Source: Streptacidiphilus neutrinimicus (lineage in GTDB: Bacteria > Actinomycetota > Actinomycetes > Streptomycetales > Streptomycetaceae). From it: a stretch of DNA of 60,597 nucleotides. This document shows positions 35,523-44,252 of this stretch, in pieces; the first letter of the stretch is position 1, and each line of letters opens with the position of its first letter. Under the pieces are notes generated by a model. It was not told the origin of the DNA. It saw only the letters and a program-made list of their open reading frames with translations, and made no database searches. The DNA lies in the NCBI RefSeq assembly GCF_000787815.1, contig NZ_BBPO01000003.1, forward strand, positions 36,399 to 96,995. Reading direction: 5' to 3'. A program made the translations under genes and the position numbers.

Positions 35523-36632
35523 ATGTCCGCACCCAACAAGTCGTACGACCCCGTGGAGGTCGAGGCTCTGAAGCCGGAGGAGATCGAGCGTCTGCGCGAC
35601 GAGGCGCTTGCCGCCTTCGCCGCAGCCACGGACCTCGACGCTCTGCACGAGGCCAAGGTCGCGCACATGGGGGACCGCTCCCCGCTCGCGCTCGCCAACC
35701 GTGAGATCGGCGCGCTGCCGCCGGCCGCGAAGGCCGAGGCCGGCAAGCGCGTCGGCGCCGCCCGTGGCGCGGTCAACAAGGCGTTCGCCGCGCGCAAGGT
35801 CGAGCTCGAGGCCGAGCGCGACGCGCGCGTGCTGGTCGAGGAGGCCGTGGACGTCACGCTGCCCTACGACCGCGCCCCGCGCGGCGGTCGGCACCCGCTG
35901 ACGACCTTCGCCGAGCGGCTGATGGACGTCTTCACGGCCATGGGCTACTCCGTCGCCGAGGGCCCCGAGGTCGAGGCCGAGTGGCTGAACTTCGACGCGC
36001 TCAACATGGGTCCGGACCACCCGGCACGCTCCACCCAGGACACCTTCTTCCTCAAGGACGCCGACTCCGTCGTCCTGCGCACGCACACCTCCGGCGTGCA
36101 GATCCGCTCGCTGCTGGCCGCGTCCGAGCCGCCGGTCTACGTGATCTGCCCGGGCCGCGTCTTCCGCAGCGACGAGCTGGACGCCACGCACACCCCCGTC
36201 TTCAACCAGGTCGAGCTGCTCGCCGTGGACGAGGGTCTGACCATGGCGGACCTCAAGGGCACCCTCGACCACATGGTCGAGTCCCTCTTCGGCGAGGGCA
36301 TCTCCACCCGCCTGCGCCCGAACTACTTCCCGTTCACCGAGCCGTCCGCCGAGATGGACATGGTCTGCTTCGTGTGCCGCGGCGAGTCCGTCGGCAACCC
36401 GGACCGTCCCTGCCGGACCTGCTCCTCCGAGGGCTGGATCGAGCTCGGCGGCTGCGGCATGGTGAACCCGCGCGTGCTGGTCGCCTGCGGCATCGACCCC
36501 AACAAGTACAGCGGCTTCGCGTTCGGCTTCGGCATCGAGCGCATGCTCATGTTCCGGCACAACGTCGAGGACATGCGAGACATCGTCGAGGGTGACGTGC
36601 GCTTCACCCTCCCGTTCGGGATGGAGATCTGA
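35523..36632 (+). CDS. pheS: phenylalanine-tRNA ligase alpha subunit
   Basis: A 369-residue PheS. The N-terminal coiled coil (residues 15-95) binds t[27 protein letters not shown] and the class II motifs 2 ([18 protein letters not shown]) and 3 ([14 protein letters not shown]) form the active site. It charges tRNA-Phe as an alpha2beta2 tetramer with PheT. A TAGACT -10 element at 35477-35482 lies upstream. The stop overlaps the pheT start by one base (TGATG). Confidence 0.98.
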
Positions 36633-39151
36633 TGCGCGTCCCGCTTTCCTGGCTGCGGGAGTACGTCGACCTCCCCGCGGGTGAGACCGGCCGAGACATC
36701 CAGGCCAAGCTGATCCGCGCCGGCCTCGAGGTCGAGGGCGTCGAGGCCCTCGGCGCCGACCTCAAGGGCCCGCTGGTGGTCGGTCAGGTCCTCGCGATCG
36801 AGGAGCTGACCGAGTTCAAGAAGCCGATCCGCTACTGCCAGGTGGACGTCGGGGACGCCAACGGCACCGGCGAGCCGCAGAACATCGTCTGCGGCGCCCG
36901 CAACTTCGCCGTCGGCGACAAGGTCGTCGTGGTGCTGCCGGGCGCGGTGCTGCCCGGACCTTTCCCGATCGCCGCGCGCCAGACGTACGGCAAGACCTCC
37001 GAGGGCATGATCTGCTCGGCCCGTGAGCTGGGCATGGGCGACGACCACGACGGCATCATCGTGCTGCCGCCGGAGTACGAGCCCGGCACCGACGCGATCG
37101 AGCTGCTGGAGCTGGTCGACGAGGTGCTGGACATCGCCGTCACCGCCGACCGCGGCTACTGCCTCTCGCTGCGCGGCGTCGCCCGGGAGACGGCGATCGC
37201 CTACGGCCTGCCGCTGCGCGACCCGGCCCTGATCGACGTGCCGCCGGCCAACTCCTACGGCCCGGCGGTCAAGGTCGAGGACCAAGCCGGCTGCGACCGC
37301 TTCGTCGCGCGCAGCGTGGTGGGCGTCGACCCGGCGGCGAAGTCGCCGATCTGGATGCAGCGCCGGATCCAGAAGGCGGGCATGCGCCCGATCTCGCTGG
37401 CCGTCGACATCACCAACTACGTGATGCTCGAGATGGGCCAGCCGCTGCACGCCTACGACCGCCACCGCATCGACGGTGCGATCACGGTCCGCCGTGCCGC
37501 GCAGGGCGAGAAGCTGCGCACGCTGGACGGCGTGGAGCGCACCCTCGACGCCGAGGACCTGCTGATCTGCGACGACTCCGGCCCGATCGGCATCGCCGGC
37601 GTCATGGGCGGCGCGGGCACCGAGATCGCGGACGCGGTCGTCGACCCGGAGACGGGCGAGGTCACCGGCACCACCGAGATCGTCATCGAGGCCGCGCACT
37701 TCGCGCCGGTCTCCATCGCGCGCACCGCGCGCCGCCACAAGCTGCCCTCCGAGGCGGCCAAGCGCTTCGAGCGCGGCGTCGACCCGGAGGCCGCCAAGGC
37801 CGCCGCGCAGCGCGCGGTGGACCTGCTGGTCCTGGTCGCCGGCGGCACCGCCGAGGCCGGTGTGACGGACATCGTCGCGCCGCACCCGGTGCACGCGATC
37901 TCCATCGCCGCCGACCTCCCGGACCGCGTCGCGGGCCAGGAGTACGGGCGGGAGACCGTCGTGCGCCGTCTCCAGGAGGTCGGCTGCACGGTCGTCGGCA
38001 CGGACGTGCTGGTCGTCACCCCGCCGACCTGGCGCCCGGACCTGACCGACCCGAACGACCTCTGCGAGGAGGTCATCCGGCTCGAGGGCTACGAGAACCT
38101 GCCCTCCACGCTGCCGAACGTCCCCGCGGGCCGCGGTCTGACGGAGGCCCAGCGCCTGCGCCGCCGCATCGGCATCGCACTGGCCTCGGCCGGCCACGTC
38201 GAGGTGCAGAACTACCCGTTCATCGGTGAGGCGGTCCTCGACGCGCTCGGCATCGAGGCGGGCGACCCGCGCCGCGACACCGTGAAGATCGCCAACCCGA
38301 TCTCGCACGAGGAGCCGTCGCTCCGCACCACGCTGCTGCCGGGCCTGCTGGGCGCGCTGCACCGCAACGTCGGGCGCGGTATGATGGACGTGGCGCTGTT
38401 CGAGCTCGGCCGCGTCTTCCGCGTCGACGGCACGGCGGAGACGCTGTACCACGCGCCGCGTCTGCCGGTTGACCGCCGTCCCACCGAGGACGAGATCGCG
38501 CAGCTGGACGCGGCCCTGCCGCGTCAGCCGTACCGGGTCGGCGCGGTGTTCGCGGGCAACCGCGAACCGCAGGGCTGGTGGGGCAAGCCGCAGGCGTGGA
38601 CCTGGGCCGACGCCGTCGAGGCGGCGCGCACTGTCGCGGACGCGGCACGCGTGTCGCTGACGGTCCGCCAGGACCAGCACACCCCGTGGCACCCGGGCCG
38701 CTGCGCCGCGCTGTACGTCGGCGAGCAGCTCGTCGGCCACGCGGGCGAGCTGCACCCGCGCGCCGTCAAGGCCCTGAACCTGCCGGAGCGCACCTGCGCG
38801 ATGGAGCTGGACCTGGACCTGCTGACGGCGGGTGGCGCGGTGAGGGCCGAGGCTCCGAAGATCTCCACCTTCCCGGTGGCGACGCAGGACGTGGCGCTGG
38901 TCGTCGACGACGCCGTCAAGGCCGCCGACGTCGAGGCCGCGCTCCGCGCGGGCGCGGGACCGCTGCTCGAGTCGCTGCGGCTGTTCGACGTCTACCGGGG
39001 CGAGAGCATCGGCGCGGGCAGGAAGTCCCTGGCCTACGCCCTCCGCTTCCGCGCGGCGGACCGCACCCTTACGGCAGACGAGGCCTCCGCGGCCCGCGAG
39101 TCGGCCGTCGCCGAGGCCGCCACCCGCGTCGGCGCGACCCTCCGCGGCTGA
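36632..39151 (+). CDS. pheT: phenylalanine-tRNA ligase beta subunit
   Basis: An 839-residue PheT with the full domain set: N-terminal part ([16 protein letters not shown]), the tRNA-binding OB fold ([10 protein letters not shown]...YCQVDVG), B3/B4 editing domains ([44 protein letters not shown]), B5 ([17 protein letters not shown]) and the C-terminal anticodon-binding RRM ([21 protein letters not shown]). It is translationally coupled to pheS. Terminator hairpin 15 bp downstream. Confidence 0.98.
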
Positions 39152-39282: not shown

Positions 39283-39741
39283 ATGCACGACCCACTCGAC
39301 ACCGCACTGCGCCTCACCCGCGCGCACGGCGCACTGGTGAGGCAGCTCGACTCCGTCCTCTCCAACCGGCACGGCATCAGCTACGCCGACCTGCAGATCC
39401 TGCTGCATCTCGGTGCGGCCGAACGCGGCCGCATGCGGAGGGTGGATCTCGCCGCCGCGCTCGGCCTGACCGCGTCGGGGGTGACCCGGGCGCTGGGGCC
39501 GCTGGAACGGATCGGCCTGGTGGAGCGGGAGAAGGACCCCCGTGACGCGCGGGTCGCGTACGCCGCGCTGACGGCGACGGGCCGGGGGTTGCTGGAGCAG
39601 ATGACCGCCAGCGCGGAGGAGGTGGCCGAGGACTGGTTCACCGCCGGCTGCACCGGGGCCGAGGTGGACAGTCTGGGACGGCTGCTCACGGGCCTCGGCG
39701 GGCGGGGCCGACCGCGCGCGACGAGGGCGACCGATGCTTGA
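39283..39741 (+). CDS. MarR-family regulator
   Basis: A 152-residue MarR protein. The winged helix is near residues 30-100 (ISYADLQILLHLG...RMRRVDLAAALGLTASGVTRALGPLERIGLVEREKDPRDARV), with dimerisation helices at both ends. Ligand unknown. It is probably autoregulated through the inverted repeat upstream. The kinase gene follows after 61 bp. Confidence 0.92.
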   Translation: MHDPLDTALRLTRAHGALVRQLDSVLSNRHGISYADLQILLHLGAAERGRMRRVDLAAALGLTASGVTRALGPLERIGLVEREKDPRDARVAYAALTATGRGLLEQMTASAEEVAEDWFTAGCTGAEVDSLGRLLTGLGGRGRPRATRATDA

Positions 39742-39802
39742 CTGGGTGGATCTGCTGGTGGGGACCGGTTCGTGGCTCTGCGGACGGAGGGAGGCGGAAG
39801 GG

Positions 39803-40669
39803 ATGAGCGCCGACGGCGAGCTCGCCGAGGTGACCGCGCTGGACTACGTCGAGCCGCTGCGCACGGGAGGGTCGCTGCCCGCCGTCGTGGAGACGGACGA
39901 CTACGGGACGTACGTGGTGAAGTTCCACGCCGCCGCGCAGGGCCGCAAGGCGCTGGTCGCGGAGGTGGTCGTCGGGGAGCTGGCGCGTCGGCTGGGGCTG
40001 CGCGTGCCGGAGCTGGTGCTGATCCGGTTCGACCCGGCCGTCGCCGCGCACGAGCCAGACCAGGAGGTGCAGGACCTGCACCGGGCCAGTGCGGGCCTCA
40101 ACCTCGGCATGGACTACCTGCCCGGGGCCACCGACTTCACCCCCGGCCAGGACGGCGTCGACCTCAGTCCCGAGGAGGCGGGCCGCGTGGTCTGGTTCGA
40201 CGCGCTCGTGGGCAACGTGGACCGGACGGTCCGCAACCCGAACCTGATGGTCTGGCATCGCCGTCTCTGGCTGATCGACCACGGCGCCGCGCTGATCTTC
40301 CACCACCGCTGGGAGGGCGCTGACGAGGCCGTGGGCAAGGCGTACGACATGTCCGCGCACGCTCTCGGCGGCTACGCGCCGGACGTGCTCGCCGCGGACG
40401 ACGCGCTCGCGCCGCTGGTCACCGAGGCGCTGCTGCGCGAGGTCGCCGCCGAGATCCCGGACGAGTGGCTGGCGCCCGAGCCCGGCTTCCCGAGCCCGGA
40501 CGCCTTGCGGGACGCCTACGCGCGGCATTTGGCCGCGCGCGTCGCCCGCTCCCAGGACTGGATCCCGCGCTGCTTCGCCACCGCGGACGAGCTCGCCGCC
40601 GCCGACGCGGCGAAGCGCGCCCGCACCCTGGCCGGTCGCCCGGCCTGGCTGCAGCACGTACGCGGGTGA
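39803..40669 (+). CDS. HipA-family kinase-like protein
   Basis: A 288-residue kinase-like protein. The nucleotide-binding strand Y/F-VVKF is followed by LVAEVVVGELARRLGLRVPELVLI; the catalytic loop NVDRTVRNPNLMVW (Asp and Asn) and the metal-binding LIDHGAALIF are HipA/PI3K-like. Such proteins often sit beside a DUF3037 partner; none is present here, and no HipB-like antitoxin either. It could phosphorylate a protein or small molecule. The ATG has GGAGG upstream; the longer frame from 39734 overlaps MarR and was not used. Confidence 0.8.
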   Translation: MSADGELAEVTALDYVEPLRTGGSLPAVVETDDYGTYVVKFHAAAQGRKALVAEVVVGELARRLGLRVPELVLIRFDPAVAAHEPDQEVQDLHRASAGLNLGMDYLPGATDFTPGQDGVDLSPEEAGRVVWFDALVGNVDRTVRNPNLMVWHRRLWLIDHGAALIFHHRWEGADEAVGKAYDMSAHALGGYAPDVLAADDALAPLVTEALLREVAAEIPDEWLAPEPGFPSPDALRDAYARHLAARVARSQDWIPRCFATADELAAADAAKRARTLAGRPAWLQHVRG

Positions 40670-42934: not shown

Positions 42935-42966
42935 GCAGGCGTCAGCGCGACAGCGCATAAGTGAGA

Positions 42967-42991
42967 CCCGGGAGCATATCCGGCTCCCGGG
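42967..42991 (-). terminator. terminator closing the tRNA-like array
   Basis: CCCGGGAGC and GCTCCCGGG make a perfect 9-bp stem around the 7-nt loop CGGATAT. It lies at the minus-strand end of the permuted tRNA array and may serve the convergent methyltransferase gene as well. Confidence 0.75.
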
Positions 42992-43050
42992 CCTCGTGGT
43001 GCCACCTCTGGAGGCGTCGGCACGTTTAAGAGTGCGGGTCATCCTCAGGT

Positions 43051-43120
43051 CGCCGTGTTCTCCCTTTGAACTACCTCCGCATGCTGGAGCGGAGAGCAGG
43101 AGTTGAACCTGCATCCGGCA
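43051..43120 (-). ncRNA. circularly permuted tRNA-Gly-like RNA core
   Basis: Read 5'-3' on the minus strand the parts are in permuted order. Anticodon-stem 3' strand TGCCG (43120-43116), variable loop GAT, T-arm GCAGG-TTCAACT-CCTGC (43112-43096), acceptor 3' strand TCTCCGC (43095-43089), then TCCA plus GCAT, then acceptor 5' strand GCGGAGG (43080-43074), UA, D-arm GTTC-AAAGGGA-GAAC (43071-43057), A, and anticodon-stem 5' strand CGGCG (43055-43051). Acceptor pairs 7/7 (one G-U), anticodon stem 5/5 (one G-U), D 4/4, T 5/5. GCGGxxGTAGTTCAA and xCCGCTCCA are typical of bacterial tRNA-Gly. The conserved U8, A14, GG18-19, A21 and TTCAA are there. No anticodon can be named because the loop is open. 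Confidence 0.8.
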
Positions 43121-43194
43121 AGTGCTGCCCGTACTCGGTCGATCCGACGCCGGGTGGCGGATGCTGAGTCTGGAGCGAGAGTCTGAGATTGATC

Positions 43195-43269
43195 GCGGCT
43201 GCCTCTACCGTCGTTGGGCTACCCCGGCGCGAAGTGCCGGGAGGAGGACTCGAACCTCCGCTGGACCGC
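43195..43269 (-). ncRNA. circularly permuted tRNA-like RNA core
   Basis: On the minus strand: anticodon-stem 3' strand GCGGT (43269-43265), variable loop CCAGC, T-arm GGAGG-TTCGAGT-CCTCC (43259-43243), acceptor 3' strand TCCCGGC (43242-43236), linker ACTTCGC (7 nt), acceptor 5' strand GCCGGGG (43228-43222), UA, D-arm GCC...GGC with AACGACGGTAGA loop (43219-43201), A, anticodon-stem 5' strand GCCGC (43199-43195). Acceptor pairs 7/7 (one G-U), anticodon stem 5/5 (one G-U). The D-loop has A14, G18-G19 and A21; the T-loop is canonical. The linker lacks CCA. It is 74 nt upstream of the Gly-like core on the same strand. Confidence 0.78.
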
Positions 43270-43313
43270 GTTCGTCACGACAAGCTTCAGCTTCAGCTTG
43301 CGCTCCTGGCGCA

Positions 43314-43334
43314 CCCCGCCCACCGGGGGCGGGG
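43314..43334 (-). terminator. hairpin after the DUF7873-like gene
   Basis: CCCCGCCC and GGGCGGGG make a perfect 8-bp stem with the loop CCGGT, 12 bp after the stop of the protein gene. It could end its mRNA or separate it from the permuted tRNA RNAs. Just downstream TGCGC-CAGGA-GCGCA (43313-43299) and CAAGCT/AGCTTG (43300-43281) form two more hairpins. Confidence 0.6.
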
Positions 43335-43346
43335 AGTCTGTGTCTG

Positions 43347-44081
43347 CTAGGCGAAGAGGAACCCGAAGACCGCGTCACCGATCCGCTGGTCCTGCACCTC
43401 GGTGCCGTTGGCCTCCTCGCGGGCGAACTTGACCGCCTGCTGGAGTCGCTCGACGCGCTCCAGCAGCTCGTTGACGCGCCGCGCCGGCAGGGCGCCGGAG
43501 AACTTCACCGTGGTCCAGTAACCGATCGTCACATCCTCGGTGTAGACCTCGACCTGGGCCGGGTGCTTCTCGGTGGCCTCGGCCTTCACGTGGTTGCGGT
43601 AGACCTTCTTGGTGCGGTTGGTCTTGACCGGCTCGGTGCGCCAGCTGTCCGTGGACTCGTCGCGGTTCCAGGTCTCGGCGGCGTCCAGCACCGGCAGCTT
43701 CTTGACGAAGGTGTGCAGGTCCACCAACTGCTTCTCCAGGAACAGCAGGTAGCTCACCGGCACCGCCGTCAGCAGCACCCGGCCGTCGACCGTCACGTCC
43801 GCCCGCGCCTCGCAGTTCGCCCAGTCCTTCGTCGCGGTGACGTCGAACAGCCGCGTCAGCGAGGCCGCGGTGGTGCGCAGCACGTCCTCGGCGTGGACCT
43901 GCACCCGCGTCGACTCCGGCGGGAACATCTCGCCTTCCTCGTCGCGCGGCTGGTAGGTCCGCGCGATGCCGGTCAGCAGCGTGGCCTTCTGCACGTCGTG
44001 GTGCGCCTGGGTGAGATCGGCGAAGGCCTTGGCCTTGACGCCCTTCTCGACGGCGATGATCTGGTTCAGCTTGGTGCCCAT
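43347..44081 (-). CDS. DUF7873-like protein associated with tRNA-like RNAs
   Basis: A 244-residue soluble protein, MGTKLNQIIAVEKGVKAKAFADLTQAHHDVQK..., that I recognise as a well-conserved bacterial family of unknown function (I believe DUF7873). Visible parts are an N-terminal helical segment, ESTRVQVHAEDVLRTTAASLTRLFDVTATKDWANCEARADV, LLTAVPVSYLLFLEKQLVDLHTFVKKLPVLDAAETW, a basic stretch (KTNRTKKVYRNHVKAEATEKHPAQVEVYTED) that could bind RNA, and VKFSGALPARRVNELLERVERLQQAVKFAREEANG near the end. The ATG follows GGGGGAACCACGC. It lies between a tRNA-like leader and two permuted tRNA-like cores, in the same direction. A role in RNA binding, repair or processing is inferred from context only. 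Confidence 0.85.
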   Translation of the reverse strand: MGTKLNQIIAVEKGVKAKAFADLTQAHHDVQKATLLTGIARTYQPRDEEGEMFPPESTRVQVHAEDVLRTTAASLTRLFDVTATKDWANCEARADVTVDGRVLLTAVPVSYLLFLEKQLVDLHTFVKKLPVLDAAETWNRDESTDSWRTEPVKTNRTKKVYRNHVKAEATEKHPAQVEVYTEDVTIGYWTTVKFSGALPARRVNELLERVERLQQAVKFAREEANGTEVQDQRIGDAVFGFLFA

Positions 44082-44111
44082 GCGTGGTTCCCCCGTGGGT
44101 GGTTCTTCATC

Positions 44112-44252
44112 GGTGCGCCGCCGGGGAATCGAACCCCGCGAGCCATCCGGCCAGAGCCAGGAGGGTCCGGCAGGACGGGGCTGGCGTCGCGCCCCCGTCC
44201 TGTCGGGCCCTCCCGCAGGCTCCGTTGTGTCCCGGCACTCGACGCTCGGCGC
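44112..44252 (-). ncRNA. tRNA-like RNA with long rod in the leader of DUF7873-like gene
   Basis: On the minus strand GCGCCG (44252-44247) pairs 6/6 with CGGCGC (44120-44115), followed by ACC. The T-arm is CGGGG-TTCGATT-CCCCG (44138-44122). Between them is no D-arm or anticodon arm but one long rod: CGAG/CTCG, CCGG/CCGG, GGAGCC/GGCTCT, GGAGGG/CCCTCC, CCG/CGG and CAGGACGGGG/CCCCGTCCTG with mismatches between. It starts 17 bp behind the rmlC stop and ends 31 bp before the protein start, so it is likely the 5' leader of the DUF7873-like mRNA. It may be processed as an independent RNA or be a regulatory structure recognised by the protein. Confidence 0.65.

Follow-up and report, generated by a model that had tools for sequence, protein, structure and literature searches.

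In a 60,597-nucleotide (nt) stretch of the Streptacidiphilus neutrinimicus genome (contig NZ_BBPO01000003.1; hereafter ‘the window’), a gene for a 244-residue protein of the family DUF7873 is followed by two predicted RNAs, RNA1 and RNA2, each carrying a tRNA-like core in which the order of parts is circularly permuted. The reading that we favour, with somewhat better than even confidence, is that DUF7873 is the dedicated RNA-binding partner of these two tandem, Y-RNA-like tRNA mimics, whose elbows recruit a tRNA-handling enzyme. Protein and RNAs recur together in Streptomyces and its relatives and in large phages of very different hosts, and this recurrence, together with covariation in the RNAs, carries the argument.

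The RNA1 core in the window runs from a T-arm (43259–43243) through the acceptor 3′ strand (43242–43236), a loop and the acceptor 5′ strand (43228–43222) to a D-arm ending at 43201; in RNA2 the T-arm occupies 43112–43096, the acceptor is formed by 43095–43089 with 43080–43074, and the D-arm extends to 43057. An initial annotation of the sequence had proposed two such cores behind a conserved protein, and its coordinates were right to about ten bases. Neither ARAGORN, searching for tRNAs, nor Rfam at gathering score flagged anything in the window. A strict search (T-arm, 7-nt acceptor strand, loop, complementary acceptor strand, positions 8–9, D-arm) within 1 kb 3′ of DUF7873 found 271 cores at 178 loci, with at least one in 166 and two or more in 104, in a set that holds near-duplicate loci; in phage tRNA arrays a few of the cores could be places where two tandem tRNAs adjoin. 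In 3.5 Mb of dinucleotide-shuffled sequence, made from 20 shuffles of each locus, 14 cores appeared, an expectation of 0.7 against the 271 observed, which confirms the proposal; control DNA gave 2 cores in 174 kb of antisense sequence and 14 in 526 kb lying 300–1800 nt upstream, both strands taken together. The count was made apart from a plasmid-collection locus (L104) and loci drawn from genome searches, and L157 and L081 are the same contig. At 11 of the 12 loci without a strict core, the RNA2 model R1 described below found a match, either at the locus itself or elsewhere in that genome or record; at L150 it found none.

Covariation supports both folds. In 41 RNA2 sequences, 93.4% of cells were paired and both-side changes occurred at 29/30 pairs, amounting to 374 cells against 116 in shuffles (0/500 shuffles as high); sliding the partners by one column halved the pairing. 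The core helices were partly selected by the search, but the two enclosing helices played no part in locus selection, and these showed both-side changes at 14/14 pairs, with 90.1% and 86.2% paired. For RNA1 (42 sequences) there were 139 both-side changes against 35 in shuffles, with pairing of 98–100% in the core helices and 72.7% in the outer helix. The equivalent of the anticodon stem, placed by tRNA geometry and without a role in core selection, formed at least five consecutive pairs in 72/100 RNA1 and 79/100 RNA2 cores, compared with 19% and 20% when partners were swapped between loci. Permuted order is thus kept in the homologous loci, and the acceptor and anticodon-stem pairings, on which the initial annotation had staked its proposal, are both supported.

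For counts of elbow, flank and hairpin features, 78 loci were set aside and the 100 with 120–260 nt between the first and second core were used. Among the 200 cores of these 100 loci, two elbow positions outside the search were nearly constant (A14 in 192, R15 in 199). U8 (198) and the D-loop GG (194) were favoured by the search, and T54T55C56 and A58 (200/200) were required by it, so their constancy says less. The two RNAs are distinguishable: 82/100 RNA1 cores have the D-stem GCCC/AGGC, and the RNA1 D-loop is the longer in 90/100 and equal in 6. In the phage vB_KpM_FBKp24 an annotated tRNA-Sup-TTA behind DUF7873 (L098, 3326–3405) overlaps the permuted T-arm of RNA2, and is probably a misannotated permuted RNA2.

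Where a tRNA would have its anticodon loop, both RNAs have outer helices and conserved motifs, and the idea that they are tRNAs broken at that loop is not supported; nor, with the loop missing, is a role as anticodon-nuclease decoys, strictly understood. RNA2 comprises a covarying outer helix (GUCGG/CCGAC in the window), an internal loop, a 9-bp helix, the anticodon-stem equivalent and then the T-arm, capped acceptor and D-arm; inspection adds a further enclosing helix, GCCACC/GGUGGC. The conserved internal loop has a 5′ strand, ATCGA (43139–43143) in the window and AUCGA as RNA (AUCRA generally), and a 3′ strand, CTTAAACG (43023–43030) in the window and CUUAAACG as RNA. RNA1 has an outer helix GGAGCG/CGCTCC (GGAGCG/CGCUCC in RNA), a 5′ flank of hexamer repeats C/G-A-R-R-Y-U (AAGCTGAAGCTGAAG in the window) and, after the core, a 3′ flank CUCAGACUCUCGCUCC.

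The RNA1 tRNA module appears dispensable in some lineages. At single-core bacterial loci, 26/26 cores have the short 7-nt D-loop of RNA2, and both RNA1 flank motifs persist in 25/26, spaced 41–119 nt apart (median 66, below 100 in 24); at two-core bacterial loci both motifs were found in 44/54, with a median spacing of 118 nt. Since the single cores are of the RNA2 type and the RNA1 flanks persist, RNA1 at these loci seems to have kept its stem but to have lost its tRNA module or exchanged it for something else. Some Y RNAs also lose the tRNA module and keep the stem. Several loci (L004, L006, L010, L022 and others) keep the RNA1 stem flanks with no recognisable tRNA core and retain the RNA2 core. 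One observation weighs against the permuted fold and leaves that of RNA1 less certain: at 16/81 bacterial loci ARAGORN took the RNA1 T-half and the sequence preceding it as a tRNA of normal order. These calls, which represent an alternative fold or are false, lie about 22–124 nt after the stop codon (L015, L024, L068 and 13 other bacterial loci).

Behind RNA2 stands a hairpin of 12–13 bp with loops CGGAUAU, UGGACAC, AGGCUAC and similar, a type, (C/U/A)GG(A/C)(U/C)A(U/C), that extends from Streptomyces to phages. A hairpin with a GGNYN-type loop was reported at 92/100 two-core loci, which is an upper estimate: the search rewarded the loop motif, and a few reported rows are plainly other hairpins. 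The terminator originally placed at 42967–42991 turns out to be the centre of this hairpin, which has 13 bp and no U-tract in the window and a 7-nt loop that recurs in distant relatives; its role may be to bind a protein and not to end transcription.

Covariance models were built for both RNAs, R1 from 41 RNA2 sequences, with which coupling to the protein was measured, and R2 from 42 RNA1 sequences; both include the window as a training row and match it at full length (R1, E 3.4e-44; R2, 43164–43305, E 1e-24). Among 150 genomes of the window's family, taken from the nearest named relatives to be Streptomycetaceae, DUF7873 was present in 92 (94 matches), and 92/92 full-length R1 rows among the matches listed, which reach down to about E 4e-12, lay on the same strand 123–273 nt behind DUF7873. 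One of the two DUF7873 matches lacking an R1 partner was a second copy that has diverged, the other a fragment of 64 residues. In a phylum sample of 296 genomes only 6 had DUF7873, and full-length R1 rows (E≤1e-9) occurred in those 6 and in no others. Of 73 DUF7873 loci outside training, many of them close relatives of training rows, 69 were matched by R1 at E≤1e-5, with 61 of the matches spanning the whole model, 2 truncated where the locus ended and 6 partial; three of the remaining four had a full-length match elsewhere in the genome or record, and the fourth, a 38-kb fragment, had none. The notion of protein and permuted RNAs as one conserved unit is therefore borne out by the core counts and by R1 coupling, and it is from this genomic coupling that we infer RNA binding by DUF7873.

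Shorter R1 rows were widespread, with some match in 143/150 family genomes. Five out of five rows checked in the window's own genome (L227, L228, L230, L231 and L233) were junctions of tandem tRNA genes; such junctions can mislead permuted-core searches, and permuted tRNAs may have arisen from them. Six listed R1 rows elsewhere lay, by coordinates, within 1.2 kb of matches to TROVE, the domain of Ro60.

The constant placement of the RNAs behind the gene, on its own strand, is what would be seen if they were a cis-acting 3′ untranslated region of the DUF7873 mRNA, serving autoregulation or stability. This we consider unlikely, given that the RNAs can stand apart from the gene. In a Chloroflexi metagenome-assembled genome (MAG; G452, locus L079), DUF7873 lies on contig C12 and the RNA1–RNA2 pair on C10 (32209–32505, L245; R1 E 1e-35), with the 3′ hairpin behind it reported by a terminator scan, although this in-trans case rests on one MAG, which may mix genomes. 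Elsewhere the RNAs are about 8.5 kb from DUF7873 (G453 and G299, whose contigs are almost identical), on the other strand (G455), 1.9 kb downstream (L094) or upstream of the gene (L169). Two distinct permuted RNAs would, moreover, exceed what a regulator needs. A promoter-like site seen by eye before the stand-alone MAG RNA was not reported by a consensus scan.

Among described RNAs, the nearest in plan is YrlA. Passages of PMC11472068 describe YrlA as binding Ro60/Rsr and the Y RNA structure 6CU1 as a circular permutation of tRNA; passages of PMC8394870 have Rsr joined via the stem and PNPase via the tRNA-like domain, and state the presence of dihydrouridine and pseudouridine. Rsr/Ro60 with YrlA is thus a bacterial protein paired with permuted tRNA-like RNAs, of which the initial annotation had known none. 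YrlA (RF02553) was the best-scoring Rfam model for the window cores on that strand, not significantly so (RNA1, 19.6 bits over the full model, E 0.43; RNA2, 20.4 bits over part of it, E 0.25). Behind DUF7873 it matched in 8 of 11 relatives scanned, at 28–38 bits, with full-model matches of E 8e-5 to 3e-4 in L084, L099, L095 and L031 and four more weaker or partial; in the other 3 there was no match at E≤0.5, and the same scan also placed one match (E 0.33) at a distance from DUF7873, within a phage tRNA array. The two Chloroflexi MAG RNAs matched at E 9e-5 and 0.0035. The gathering score of 69 bits was reached by neither the window RNAs nor the relatives, but this threshold discriminates poorly here, as a YrlA match directly before a TROVE-bearing open reading frame (ORF) in the same bacterial family also fell far below it, at only 26.7 bits. 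The arrangement of YrlA, a permuted tRNA-like module on a terminal stem, was found in the present RNAs by prediction and covariation.

This shared architecture could mean that we are looking at standard Y RNAs whose partner is a Ro60/Rsr (TROVE, PF05731) protein encoded elsewhere, DUF7873 being a mere neighbour, and TROVE was indeed found in 62/92 family genomes with DUF7873 compared with 27/58 without, a mild association (Fisher p 0.017, phylogeny uncorrected). We regard this as improbable: TROVE had no match in the window's genome, was absent from 30/92 DUF7873 genomes of the family and from 24/28 DUF7873 genomes or records searched, many being fragments (present in 4), and among the family-set matches listed no full-length RNA2 row lay away from DUF7873. 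A Pfam scan of the window protein gave no TROVE match, and hhalign, comparing an alignment of 85 DUF7873 sequences with a single TROVE protein, returned a probability of 0.1. DUF7873 and a TROVE match do occur together in the large phage records or contigs of L095, L152, L163 and L177, and the control genome of Deinobacterium chartae matches both.

A still weaker case can be made for permuted genes of working tRNAs or a permuted two-piece transfer-messenger RNA (tmRNA). The topology is equal, beta_tmRNA matched at 4 phage loci (24–25 bits, E about 1e-3) and NCCA follows the acceptor in 65/200 cores; yet the anticodon position is taken by a stem, which continues into helices that covary and internal loops that are conserved, NCCA is absent in 135/200, and the beta_tmRNA matches are far below the gathering score of 84. 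The G3:U70 alanine identity pair, which together with a CCA end defines tmRNA, was present in 8/200 cores. A strong tmRNA match (90.3 bits) was seen in the tRNA array of phage GodonK (L084, 381–909); over the stretch inspected, the annotation of the record places a tRNA-His within the match but lacks a tmRNA. That the RNAs are decayed or chance products of tandem tRNA genes is scarcely credible as their present state, although plausible as their origin: the R1 matches at tandem tRNA junctions show that neighbouring tRNAs can yield a permuted core, and 30/97 phage loci have a tRNA called by ARAGORN within 500 nt upstream, but covariation extends outside the core, the non-tRNA flanks are conserved across hosts, and such an upstream tRNA was called at 1/81 bacterial loci.

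That single bacterial locus is the nearest relative, L001, where the position of the window's tRNA-like leader is a tRNA-Tyr; in the window none is called, and the leader has the look of a tRNA with a long G+C hairpin instead of the anticodon arm. It is apparently a degenerate tRNA, of a kind that lies before the gene in the nearest relatives. Because an upstream tRNA is so rare among bacterial loci, we take the leader to be a lineage-specific passenger and not the constant part of the system that had been supposed. A loose T-loop pattern upstream of the gene at about 20 loci proved, where inspected by eye, to be mostly promoter-region sequence and not tRNA.

Features of the DUF7873 locus, in positions of the window
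Feature	Position	Strand	Basis
tRNA-like leader, apparently degenerate tRNA, lineage-specific	44112..44252	-	ARAGORN; by-eye comparison with L001, L003
DUF7873 protein, 244 aa, fold predicted to mix helices with strands	43347..44081	-	PF25283, E 1.9e-118
G+C-rich hairpin, directly 3′ of stop codon	43312..43336	-	Read from sequence
RNA1, predicted Y-RNA-like, permuted tRNA core 43201-43259	43172..43306	-	Model R2, pair counts, YrlA
RNA2, predicted Y-RNA-like, permuted tRNA core 43057-43112	42997..43174	-	Model R1, pair counts, YrlA
3′ hairpin, 13 bp, loop CGGATAT, without U-tract	42963..42995	-	Recurring GGNYN-type loop

The window protein scored 395 bits against PF25283 (DUF7873), well past the curated cut-off of 27. 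AlphaFold2, run on residues 2–244 with an 85-sequence alignment, gave a confident model (predicted local distance difference test score 94.6, predicted template-modelling score 0.70) with two long N-terminal helices, strands, a helix, a strand meander and a long C-terminal helix. Residues invariant in 30/30 rows of alignment A1 include N88, P107, P129, W137, T169, S194, A223 and N224 (numbered on the aligned row without the first Met, that is, full-protein number minus one), and a basic stretch lies at about residues 155–175. Inspection revealed no catalytic signature, PHROGs and PADLOC assigned no family to four DUF7873 proteins, and a PDB sequence search returned four rows (E 0.035–0.35), none convincing. 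Foldseek searches of PDB and BFVD with the model gave zero rows at E≤0.001; the top BFVD row by probability was a 173-aa protein of Vibrio phage Vp_R1 (probability 0.98, E 0.07). A VIA-align structural list consisted mostly of common helix pairs, and the absence of Ro60 from it proves nothing; the structural searches thus yielded no convincing relative. No mention of DUF7873 was found in the open-licence PMC papers searched.

No third fixed gene was seen beside DUF7873 when mechanical ORFs from flanks of about 2–2.5 kb were clustered, the largest of the 12 groups listed covering 35/178 loci. Genes for a HipA-like kinase (39734–40669) and the phenylalanyl-tRNA synthetase beta subunit (36632–39151) lie near the locus in the window, with no link shown. 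Hairpins similar to the one after the stop codon were seen, on inspection alone, at other actinobacterial loci. At L146 the frame read for the DUF7873 relative meets a stop codon early on; the copy may be broken, or another frame may be used. This locus was left out of alignment A2, and distances at it are unreliable.

DUF7873 relatives were confirmed at 118 places in the species-genome collection, mostly in Streptomyces, with others in Streptacidiphilus, Actinacidiphila, Catenulispora, Embleya, Nocardia, further genera and the one Chloroflexi MAG. They also occurred in 73 phage records (phages of Arthrobacter, Gordonia, Rhodococcus, Rhizobium, Vibrio, Klebsiella/Serratia and cyanobacteria), in 4 plasmid-collection records and in 291 IMG/VR stretches; 80 of the 118 places and 80 of the 291 stretches were kept for analysis.

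How such a unit might work can be sketched from these parts. Each RNA would present an end-closed stem with candidate protein-binding motifs (the hexamer repeats of RNA1, the AUCRA/CUUAAACG loop of RNA2), and the distal module of T-arm, capped acceptor stem and D-arm would make a tRNA elbow. DUF7873 would hold the stem end and leave the elbow exposed, and the elbow could then recruit a tRNA-handling protein, be it a ribonuclease such as PNPase, as in the Ro60–Y RNA machine, or a tRNA-modifying or tRNA-attacking enzyme, which the ribonucleoprotein (RNP) would redirect or titrate. That the RNAs are made and bound, and DUF7873 and RNAs form an RNP, we hold to be probable; given an RNP, the chances of a tether or bait role are about even. 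A broader proposal is more tentative: DUF7873 and its RNAs may be a Ro60-independent class of Y-RNP, carried by large phages whose hosts differ widely and by the majority of family genomes sampled, whose exposed elbows would seize tRNA-handling enzymes or turn them to other targets. In phages the enzymes concerned could be ones that host defences direct against tRNA. According to passages of PMC7824862, phage tRNA arrays may serve to offset host attack on tRNA, and as the gene is often found among tRNA genes (the 30/97 phage loci above), a phage role in tRNA-directed conflict is plausible.

To our knowledge, bacterial Y RNAs have so far been tied to Ro60. Were the proposal true, a second, unrelated protein would be associated with permuted tRNA mimics, making elbow mimicry on a protein-bound stem a general device, and DUF7873, a family found in 92/150 family genomes and 291 IMG/VR stretches, would gain its first function. 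Compact phage versions would be at hand for structural and genetic work, and the role of Y RNA tRNA modules would become testable in a Ro60-free system.

With permuted tmRNA (for example beta_tmRNA, RF01850) and permuted tRNA genes these RNAs share the order T-arm, acceptor, D-arm, but unlike those they are without an anticodon loop, and CCA and G3:U70 are inconstant. Like the phage RNAs GOLLD and ROOL they are structured, of unassigned role and near phage tRNA genes; GOLLD and ROOL are much larger and without permuted tRNA cores, and Rfam at gathering score gave no match to either in the window. GOLLD is placed in Mycobacterium tRNA arrays in passages of PMC9569102. The closest likeness is to YrlA with Rsr/Ro60: a permuted module (T-arm, capped acceptor, D-arm) on a stem, formed where the two RNA ends pair, that has an asymmetric internal loop, the RNA being encoded near the gene of a partner protein. 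Unlike YrlA, however, the RNAs neighbour DUF7873, for which comparison with a single TROVE protein revealed no similarity, have another internal-loop motif, usually come as a tandem pair with a third hairpin, and score below the YrlA gathering threshold. As a TROVE partner and that score were both tested and neither was found, we do not file them as YrlA: they are RNAs built on the YrlA plan that stand beside a different protein.

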